Assembly (NCBI GenBank): GCA_947650365.1
Contig: OX393550.1
Coordinates: 118,950,874 to 119,014,873 of the forward strand
Direction of reading: 5' to 3'
Source of the DNA: Chamaelirium japonicum
Lineage: Eukaryota; Streptophyta; Magnoliopsida; Liliales; Melanthiaceae
Length of the DNA: 64,000 nucleotides
This document shows, piece by piece, positions 53,375 to 56,232 of this stretch (the first letter of the stretch is position 1; each line of letters begins with the position of its first letter). Made by a program: the position numbers and the translations under genes. Under the pieces are notes generated by a model. That model was not told the origin of the DNA and did no database searches. It saw nothing but the letters and a program-made list of their open reading frames with translations.

Positions 53375-53482
53375 ATATATATATATATATATATATATAT
53401 ATATATATATATATATATATATATATATATATATATATATATATATATATATATATATATATATATATATATATATATATAT
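53375..53482. repeat. AT dinucleotide tract
   Basis: About 108 bp of pure AT repeat, starting 175 bp after the GAUT11 stop codon and bordering foldback A. Confidence 0.95.
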
Positions 53483-53875
53483 GGGTCAGGATCGGATGAC
53501 CCAGCAAAATTTTGACCCATTAATAACCCAGCACCCTTTGAGGCACCTAGAGGTTTTAGAATGGGCTGATTTTTTGTAGACATGTTGTCTATGATATGTT
53601 GATCATCCTCACAAAAAATCAGCCCATTCTAAAACCTCTAAGTGCATCAAAGGGTGCTCTTTAAATCAACGATTAAAATTGAAAGTAAAAAACCGTTGAT
53701 TTGAAGTGCGCATTTGATGCACCTAGAGGTTTTAGAATGGGTTGATTTTTTGTGAGGATCAACATAACATAGACAACATCCCTACAAAAAATTAACCCAT
53801 TCTATAACCTCTAGGTGCCTCAAAGGGTGCTGGGTTATTAATGGGTCAAAATTTGCTGGCATCCGATCCTGACCC
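53483..53875. mobile_element. Foldback element A, between AT tracts
   Basis: 393 bp from gggtcaggatcggatg to catccgatcctgaccc. The outer arms of about 95 bp are near-perfect inverted repeats. Inside are four copies, alternately inverted, of a gaggttttagaatgggctga motif followed by ttttttgt. The whole can fold as one long hairpin with smaller hairpins inside. No coding frame. Confidence 0.85.
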
Positions 53876-53960
53876 TATATATATATATATATATATATAT
53901 ATATATATATATATATATATATATATATATATATATATATATATATATATATATATATAT
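53876..53960. repeat. AT dinucleotide tract
   Basis: About 85 bp of AT repeat between foldbacks A and B, followed by short aaat and GA runs to 53985. Confidence 0.93.
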
Positions 53961-53985
53961 AAATAAATAAAGAGAGAGAGAGAGA

Positions 53986-54357
53986 GGCTGGCTGGCAGCC
54001 TATTATTTCGATGAAATGAGCAGCCACCCATTTGATATCCTTAGGAGTCTTAGAATGTGCTAATTTTTTGTGAGCATAAACATCTTATCTTAGATAGAAC
54101 ATCCACAAAAAATCAGCACATTCTAAAACCTTTAGATGCATCAAATGTTATATTTTATATTAACGGTTACAACGGACGTTCGATAAAACTTCTAACATTT
54201 GATGCCCTTAGGATTTTTTAAATGTGCTGATTTTTTGTGGGTGTTCTATCTATGATAAGGTGCTTCTGCTCACAAAAAATCAGCACATTCTAAAACTTCT
54301 AAGGGCTTCAAATGGGTGGCTGCCCATTTCGCCAAAATAAACTGACAGCTCGTCTCC
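53986..54357. mobile_element. Foldback element B, between AT tracts
   Basis: About 372 bp. The left arm has gcagccacccatttga and the right arm its complement tcaaatgggtggctgc. Four alternately inverted ttagaatgtgctgatttttt motifs lie inside, as in A, though the outer arms are unrelated to A. Confidence 0.82.
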
Positions 54358-54601
54358 TATATATATATATATATATATATATATATATATATATATATAT
54401 ATATATATATATATATATATATATATATATATATATATATATATATATATATATATATATATATATATATATATATATATATATATATATATATATATAT
54501 ATATATATATATATATATATATATATATATATATATATATATATATATATATATATATATATATATAGAGAGAGAGAGAGAGAGAGAGAGAGAGAGAGAG
54601 G
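54358..54601. repeat. AT tract followed by GA tract
   Basis: About 209 bp of AT repeat then about 35 bp of GA repeat, between foldbacks B and C. It is the longest tract of the cluster. Confidence 0.93.
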
Positions 54602-54728
54602 AATGATAAAATGCGGCGTGCAGTGTCGCACCGCAGCCGTCTGATGCACCCGCTGCGTGCGTGCGATGCACGCAGCGGTGCATTAGACGGCTGCATTGCG
54701 ACACCGCACGCCGTATCCTAACACGCCC
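54602..54728. mobile_element. Foldback element C, short GC-rich hairpin between AT tracts
   Basis: 127 bp. The arms pair gcggcgtgcagtgtcgca and cagccgtctgatgcac on the left with their near complements on the right, around the centre gcgtgcgtgcgatgcacgc. It lacks the gaggttttagaatg motif of A, B and D. Confidence 0.82.
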
Positions 54729-54810
54729 ATATATATATATATATATATATATATATATATATATATATATATATATATATATATATATATATATATATAT
54801 ATATATATAT
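54729..54810. repeat. AT dinucleotide tract
   Basis: About 82 bp of AT repeat between foldbacks C and D. Confidence 0.93.
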
Positions 54811-55198
54811 GGGTCAGGTTCAATGGACACTGTTTTTGCACTTAAATTTTTACACCGATTTTCAAACCAACTAGATAGAGGTTTTAGAATTTCTTGATTT
54901 TTTGTGAGCATAATCATCTTTACTTAGATAGCACGTCCACAAAAAATCAGCACATTCTAAAGCCTGCAAGTACATCAAAACTAAAAGGCTTTATCAACCG
55001 TCCATTTTAATCGTTAATTTGAAGAGCACATTTAATAAGTCTAGAGGCTTTAGAATGTGCTGATTTTTTGTGGACGTGCTATCTAAGACAAGTTGATTAT
55101 TCTCACAAAAAATCAAGAAATTCTGAAACCTCTATCTAATGGTTTGAAAATCGATGTAAAAAATTGAGTGCAAAAACAGTGTCCATTGAACCTGTCCC
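54811..55198. mobile_element. Foldback element D, between AT tracts
   Basis: 388 bp from gggtcaggttcaatggacac to gtgtccattgaacctgtccc. Arms are near-perfect inverted repeats over about 95 bp, with four alternately inverted gaggttttagaat...gattttttgtg motifs inside. The first bases gggtcagg are shared with A. Confidence 0.85.
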
Positions 55199-55358
55199 TA
55201 TATATATATATATATATATATATATATATATATATATATATATATATATATAGATATATATATATATATATATATATATATATATATATATATATATATA
55301 TATATATATATATATATATATATATATATATATATATATATATATATATATATATATA
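55199..55358. repeat. AT dinucleotide tract
   Basis: About 160 bp of AT repeat with one tagata interruption near 55250, between D and E. Confidence 0.93.
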
Positions 55359-55682
55359 GTAGTGATACATTGCGGCCGGGTAACGTGCGGCCACCCCTTT
55401 CCGGGGCATTTTGAAATTTTTTTTTTTGGGGATTGATCACCTACCCTTGGATAGCACACATAAAAAATTTTAGCCCGATCCAAGCCGTGTAGGCCGTCCA
55501 AATGTGATCGACTTTTATCGGTCGTTCATTTTGATCAATACATTTGGACGACCTACAGGGCTTGGATCGGGCTGAAATTTTTTGTGTGCTATCTAAGGGT
55601 GGGGATCAATCAAAAAAAAAAAAAAAATCCCAAAATACCCGGAAGGGGGTGCCGCACGTTACCGACTGCAATGCATCAGTAC
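55359..55682. mobile_element. Foldback element E, between AT tracts
   Basis: 324 bp. Arms of about 150 bp pair gtgatacattgcggccggg, taacgtgcggccacccc and the later agcccgatccaagccgtgta with their complements. The arms meet near 55520. The motif of A, B, D and F is absent. Confidence 0.83.
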
Positions 55683-55707
55683 TATATATATATATATATA
55701 TATATAT
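55683..55707. repeat. Short AT dinucleotide tract
   Basis: About 25 bp of AT repeat between foldbacks E and F. Confidence 0.9.
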
Positions 55708-56232
55708 GAGTATGATTTTGTATGTCAATATATGCTCCTCTATTAACATATATAGAGGTTTCCAAATTTACTAATTTTTTGTGGATGTGATATCTATGTT
55801 AAAACAATTATCATCATAAAAAAATCAGCAAGTTCTGAAACCTATAAGTTTTTTAAAATAAGCTCATCAAATTAACGGCTGAAATGGATGGAGGATACAA
55901 CTTCTATCATTTTGATACATTTAGAGGTTTCAGAATCTGATGATTTTTGGTGAGGATGATTATATTGCTATAGATAGCACATTCATCAAAAATCAACAAA
56001 TTCTGAAACATCTAGGTTCATCAAAATGTTATAAGATTTATCAGTCGTCTATTTCAACTATTAATTTGAAGAGCTTTTTTAAAATGCTTATAGGTTTCAG
56101 AATTTGCTGATTTTTTATGAGGATGATCACCTTAACATAATATCACATTTATAAAAATTTAGTTAATTAAAAAACCTCTATATATGTTAATAGAGGAGCA
56201 TACATTGATGTATTCTTTGTATGGCCCTATAT
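55708..56232. mobile_element. Foldback element F, last of the cluster
   Basis: About 525 bp. The ends pair atgctcctctattaacatat with atatgttaatagaggagcat. Six or so alternately inverted variants of ggtttcagaatttgctgatt lie inside. It is more diverged than A and D, and its right AT tract is reduced to tatat. Confidence 0.78.

Follow-up and report, generated by a model that had tools for sequence, protein, structure and literature searches.

How do foldback elements with different ends come to lie side by side, separated by AT dinucleotide repeats? The question arises behind a GAUT-type open reading frame in the window, by which we mean the whole 64-kb stretch of DNA analyzed here.

Structure of the array

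Positions 53375-56228 of the window hold six foldback elements of 129-521 bp and, in alternation with them, six AT tracts of 25-210 bp; this array begins 174 bp past the stop of the GAUT-type open reading frame. Seven of the eight TA/AT runs of at least 12 bp in the whole window fall inside this array, and none of the six elements is interrupted by another. A sequence-only reading had described six foldbacks in a row with AT tracts between them, and both are present. It had also called the spacers pure AT of 25-209 bp. The six tracts are there, but two run into GA repeats (AATAAATAAA with a GA run follows the A-B tract, and (GA)16 the B-C tract), one holds a G, and there is no AT tract to the right of F, where only TATATA is found. 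The features are as follows, H being a palindromic inner module.

51749-53200, plus strand: GAUT-type glycosyltransferase open reading frame (Pfam PF01501, 3.5e-57; GAUT_1, 2e-5)
53375-53482 (108 bp), no strand: (AT)54 tract, left border of A
53483-53875, plus strand: element A, foldback; termini GGGTCAGGATCGGATG and CATCCGATCCTGACCC; core H-spacer-H; flank bases T and T (odd duplication)
53537-53824, plus strand: H modules of A with their spacer (53537-53654 and 53713-53824)
53876-53961 (86 bp), no strand: (TA)n tract between A and B, extending with AATAAATAAA and the GA run to 53985
53986-54357, plus strand: element B, foldback; H modules at 54029-54147 and 54196-54314
54358-54599, no strand: (TA)105 tract between B and C (54358-54567, 210 bp), then (GA)16
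54600-54728, plus strand: element C, short foldback; no H core detected; relatives in other arrays
54729-54810 (82 bp), no strand: (AT)41 tract between C and D
54811-55198, plus strand: element D, foldback; termini GGGTCAGGTTCAATGGACAC; H modules at 54865-54979 and 55031-55146; flank bases T and T
55199-55358 (160 bp), no strand: TA tract between D and E, with a single G at 55253
55359-55682, plus strand: element E, foldback; diverged H core at 55411-55496; flank phase even as delimited here
55683-55707 (25 bp), no strand: (TA)12 tract between E and F
55708-56228, plus strand: element F; three H modules at 55743-55852, 55911-56026, and 56077-56190

The elements had been read as nearly complete inverted repeats, and this was confirmed. 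With gaps counted, the left half matched the reverse complement of the right half at 83% in A (taken one base short in this calculation), 77% in B, 78% in C, 84% in D, 79% in E, and 74% in F; ungapped identities were 81-93%. Terminal inverted repeats, a mark of Mutator-superfamily MITEs, were present. The window copy of A has a 3' arm that is atypical relative to the family terminus, and F is trimmed at its ends, its arms being shorter than those of its family (arm starting GGAGCATGACTTTGTATGCCCATGCAAAGAAGGCC). Folding was computed for A among the six elements and gave -287 kcal/mol, compared with a mean of -91 (sd 5.8) in 100 dinucleotide shuffles (z -33.7). Of 55 Rfam matches with E up to 1, none reached the gathering score of its family; thus, no known microRNA family was supported.

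Other repeats were noted in the window. An 118-bp tandem repeat with 11 copies and internal GACCGATCGGT motifs lies at 60126-61434, and a GC-rich 98-bp tandem repeat with nearly 14 copies at 24032-25374. Upstream of the GAUT-type open reading frame (50121-50641 and 49291-49799) are a 254-bp direct repeat (two copies, 98%) and a 168-bp repeat (three copies).

Borders of copies in the host genome

The assembly of the host (1.52 Gb, 3253 contigs, window included) was searched for further copies. First-look candidates numbered 3512 for A, 3662 for D, and 4313 for F, and 40 were scored for each; copies of B, C, and E are known only from clusters around A, D, or F. TA was found on both sides in all 30 fetched copies of A (fetched from the 40 scored of the 3512 candidates). 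The 29 A copies outside the window were on average 98.5% identical to one another and 97.0% identical to the window copy; judged on these best-scoring copies only, A would represent a fairly recent burst. For D, 19 of the 20 fetched copies lay between TA tracts, counting one with a G two bases off its left end (L094) and one with an altered 3' end (L098); the exception, L088, was in ordinary DNA. A duplicate identical to the window copy of D at 388/388 positions was found on contig C9 (G000:C9:32726970-32727357). The 20 copies of F mostly had TA, GA, CA, or TC runs at their borders, with none on the left in L061 and L067. In the samples of A, D, and F, most copies were therefore bordered by (TA)n or other dinucleotide runs, as in microsatellite-targeting MITEs.

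Copies without AT borders, which the sequence-only reading had named as evidence against its proposal, do exist, but they are rare for D: G or C stood at position -7 in 21 of 971 exact 20-base termini, with 0 hits for a reversed-pattern control in both searches. This rarity indicates a preference for TA rather than an absence of targeting. For A, 67 termini had G or C at -7.

Target duplications and empty sites

Loci with such borders were inspected for target duplications. The D sample consisted of L088 and the other 20 G/C hits, fetched as 19 stretches (two hits being the ends of one element), giving 20 loci chosen for G/C at -7. An exact 9-bp duplication was found at five of them, in non-TA DNA at L088, L105, and L109 and in interrupted TA at L103 and L111; among the other 15, four were partial copies, two were off by one base, and the rest were asymmetric. 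For A, 20 loci were picked by eye from the 67 non-TA-border places, some equally non-TA-like places being left out, and an exact 9-bp duplication was again found at five (L124, L126, L127, L131, and L136); the remaining 15 included four without both termini in the stretch and one differing by one base. These ten duplications were exact at a length of 9 only (lengths 6-12 tested for D and 5-13 for A), and the rough chance expectation for exact duplications was 0.0003. In a separate, stricter count of 28 complete A or D copies, 10 lay in pure TA; of the other 18, three matched at 9 only and eight at no length from 5 to 12.

When the flanks of L126 were joined and searched, the query hit its own two flanks and seven paralogous places that cross the junction without the element at 80-84% identity (six over query positions 1-71 or 4-71, one over 4-60). 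The fetched loci themselves yielded no empty sites, merely overlaps of the same place. The 9-bp duplications together with the paralogous empty sites of L126 indicate a Mutator-type insertion signature for A and D, the two families examined outside dinucleotide runs, in both of which the duplication is of Mutator type (8-11 bp, typically 9 bp). It had been proposed alternatively that the AT tracts are carried as element ends. This proposal does not agree with the ten duplicated copies: all have the same G...C termini, and the eight that lie in non-TA DNA have no TA tail. Nor does it agree with the site that has seven paralogous empty counterparts.

Phase of the flanks within pure TA

Because slippage steps by two, the parity of a duplication can be read even in pure TA: after an odd duplication the two flanking bases are identical, and after an even one they differ. 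The phase was odd in 86 of 106 kept foldbacks (p 6e-11, in a test conceived after the data had been seen and with related copies that are not fully independent, though their flanks are different places), namely in 37/39 of A, 23/27 of D, and 8/8 of family G. The 106 remained after removal of 31 elements with GA/CT runs at their ends, 28 that were not foldbacks, and 35 with ends other than G...C. The unfiltered count was 107/156 odd; it still contained the GA/CT-ended elements, whose phase is set by the run. Families other than A and D gave 26/40 (p 0.08), and the parity claim is accordingly limited to A, D, and, weakly, G. All six even cases in A and D were counted as even, although L055 has an extra G and L024 is one G short at the terminus, and L107 and L112 lie in interrupted tracts; L043 and L083 were unexplained. 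Odd parity by itself fits 9, 7, or 11 alike.

In the window, the phase was readable for three elements, being odd for A and D and even for E. When the phase was oriented to the element, A showed TT in 20, AA in 8, and TA in 2 of 30 copies, and D showed TT in 12, AA in 6, and TA in 1 of 20, with one incomplete. The family with ends GGGGCATGCTATAATGCGG (e.g., L023:1560-1709 and L032:1181-1330) had a mostly even phase, unlike A and D, which may reflect a target duplication of 10 bp. In the family starting GGGGCATGC, most of the few cases were even, perhaps through a 10-bp duplication.

These data bear on a model proposed by the authors of the SaTar study, in which circular intermediates with microsatellite filler enter TA tracts by homologous recombination (PMC5907723; this source, PMC8449440, and PMC12550479 are cited from the portions of text available). 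Many borders picked for a G or C near the end were asymmetric or compound and had no exact duplication, in keeping with the model. However, the exact 9-bp duplications, in which non-TA sequence or interrupted TA was copied, speak against it, and a circle passing on its filler would be expected to hold one phase, whereas near-identical copies show both odd phases. We therefore consider recombination of circles an unlikely origin of the array. The borders, the 9-bp duplications, and the parity instead support, for A and D, the earlier suggestion that one mechanism repeatedly hits AT microsatellites.

Arrays elsewhere in the genome

At 78 loci, 179 distinct segments (60-1500 bp) were delimited between TA tracts, and with the threshold applied here 151 of them counted as foldbacks. 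Of 41 independent, long-flanked places, 38 contained at least two TA-linked foldbacks and 24 at least four; the places had been selected for sequence resembling an array or element A, and the counts thus mean that arrays are common around these families and imply no genome-wide frequency. The window scores four by the same threshold because C falls short of it and F has no tract on its right. Its array is both multi-family and non-nested; for the 38 of 41 places elsewhere, the statement concerns the presence of at least two foldbacks, nesting having been counted in the window only.

An assembly misjoin at the AT repeats, the artifact that the sequence-only reading had itself raised, would be plausible in so far as long AT tracts are error-prone. 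Against it stand the TA-linked foldbacks at 38 of these 41 selected places and the arrays published for other plants, some of them PCR-confirmed in guayule (available text of PMC5907723 and PMC8449440), and a misjoin is very unlikely to be the cause.

In two further places, G000:C6:16317975-16319633 and C11:25543406-25547039, A termini occur at short regular intervals with few AT bases between them. Judged from terminus positions alone, these runs are probably tandem A arrays and perhaps a young satellite. At L028:3668-5124, an insert of 1082 bp interrupts an A copy; its ends read CAAGGT..., it is accompanied by an 8-bp duplication (ATGGTATG), and it appears hAT-like.

The pattern hits on C6 and C11 would lend some color to tandem or segmental duplication of a TA-element unit, but this is the least probable origin of the window array, given that its six elements have different arms and dispersed relatives and that no flank of at least 500 bp at 85% identity is common to different places.

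A shared core beneath different arms

Elements A, B, and D have the layout outer arm, H, spacer, H, outer arm, and F contains three H modules. In the window, H is a palindrome of about 110-119 nt with a repeat period of about 166-176 bp. The inner motif had been described as repeated in alternating orientation, an appearance that arises because H is itself palindromic and repeated. It had also been assigned to A, B, D, and F, and those four do share it, but E has a diverged copy as well: none of the 200 shuffles per comparison attained the local score of E with B, D, or F, and 2 of 200 did so with A, and the nhmmer E-value of H in the window's E was 7.4e-5. C was without H, its best scores against A, B, D, and F being matched by 53, 166, 193, and 51 of 200 shuffles, respectively.

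Across the inter-TA segments, H was found in 110 of 179 (E < 1e-4). The 208 usable arms of H-bearing segments fell into 14 clusters, 11 of which hold at least two segments. Among 14 representatives, arms were alike in 3 of 91 pairs (cut-off, above the 99th of 100 shuffles) and first H modules in 84 of 91, the latter figure being partly built in by the selection of segments for H and the former not. The outer arms had previously been called unrelated, but A and D have the first eight terminal bases, GGGTCAGG, in common. Where both arms could be assigned, the two agreed, apart from one mixed element; in 54 segments neither arm could be assigned. The mixed element, the single hybrid among the 179 segments, joins a remnant of D to a different family, and arm swapping was thus not seen in progress.

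By sequence comparison, at least 11 families share one hairpin module beneath unrelated termini, so that the motif is shared more widely than was first recognized. Common descent with fast-replaced ends and modular exchange of ends would both fit these data. Our tentative suggestion, to which we give somewhat less than even odds, is that H (about 112-118 nt, in two or three copies) has been fitted with at least 11 unrelated arms, that this common cargo is brought to TA microsatellites by different Mutator-type transposases, and that the termini are exchanged as modules. Such an exchange may possibly work by recombination between array neighbors, followed by symmetrization of the foldback.

Origin of the array

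Insertion with a 9-bp duplication is seen for A and D, as are the TA preference and the adjacency of different families. We conclude, with a probability of roughly 0.88, that the array was built from several families of MULE-MITEs, non-autonomous elements of the Mutator superfamily, which entered the same TA microsatellite behind the gene in successive insertions, the 9-bp evidence covering two of the six families. A transposase acting in trans would recognize the terminal arms, the TA-rich target would be cut with a stagger (9 bp for A and D), and the element would be pasted in. Repair would then duplicate the 9 bp, which inside TA would merely be more TA. Slippage may keep the leftover tracts long, so that the locus would remain a target and elements would accumulate side by side, presumably stepwise at the window locus. 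The GA/TC runs at some borders have probably grown by slippage from element ends, by analogy with the available account in PMC8449440. No transposase with these termini was found among the 25 longest open reading frames near copies, which were viewed by eye only.

Relation to known systems

Six such elements in tandem had been thought undescribed. However, non-nested arrays of microsatellite-linked non-autonomous MULEs have been reported in guayule, rice, sorghum (a cluster of eight), and citrus (PMC5907723, in the text available), and the accessible part of PMC8449440 reports 4024 clusters of Ac-mMITEs in pineapple, with 9/10-bp duplications and GA/TC borders made by slippage. Micron-type elements occur mainly in Poaceae and Rosaceae among 207 plants (PMC12550479, available portion). 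The present array is best read, by analogy, as a further case of this published kind, with stepwise adjacent insertion as for the SaTar elements and Ac-mMITEs.

The SaTar elements (guayule gSaTar, rice rSaTar including Micron, and those of sorghum and citrus; PMC5907723, as far as the available text describes them) resemble those studied here in being short non-autonomous MULEs with terminal inverted repeats, mostly between (TA)n, and in forming non-nested multi-family arrays, several families having a minority of 9- or 10-bp duplications elsewhere. Compared by description rather than by sequence, they differ in the duplication of 10 bp in guayule versus 9 bp for A and D. The same text describes unrelated elements in arrays, whereas here many families share one H under different arms. 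The Ac-mMITEs (PMC8449440, available portion) are likewise MITEs of TA microsatellites with 9/10-bp duplications outside TA, non-nested clusters, and GA/TC borders. By description, however, two pineapple families share terminal segments, whereas here the inside is shared and the ends differ.

MuTAnT of Medicago truncatula (PMC4486113) is a foldback MULE-MITE of similar segments in alternating orientation, with G-run termini, a TA target, and a 9-bp duplication in the few non-TA copies (14/218). In contrast to the at least 11 arm families found here, with no partner found, it forms a single family, divided into two subfamilies, and has a putative autonomous partner. Micron of rice and TAFT of maize are similar by description, being TA-microsatellite elements as cited in the MuTAnT paper and the available SaTar and Ac-mMITE texts. 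A limited literature search gave nothing on a shared core under unrelated termini or on flank-phase parity, a thin basis for calling either new.

These results add one more plant genome in which Mutator-type MITEs land in TA microsatellites. Parity, together with duplicated interruptions within TA, provides a simple test between staggered-cut insertion and the recombination model, and the question of how MITE families gain new termini can be approached through a shared core with different ends.
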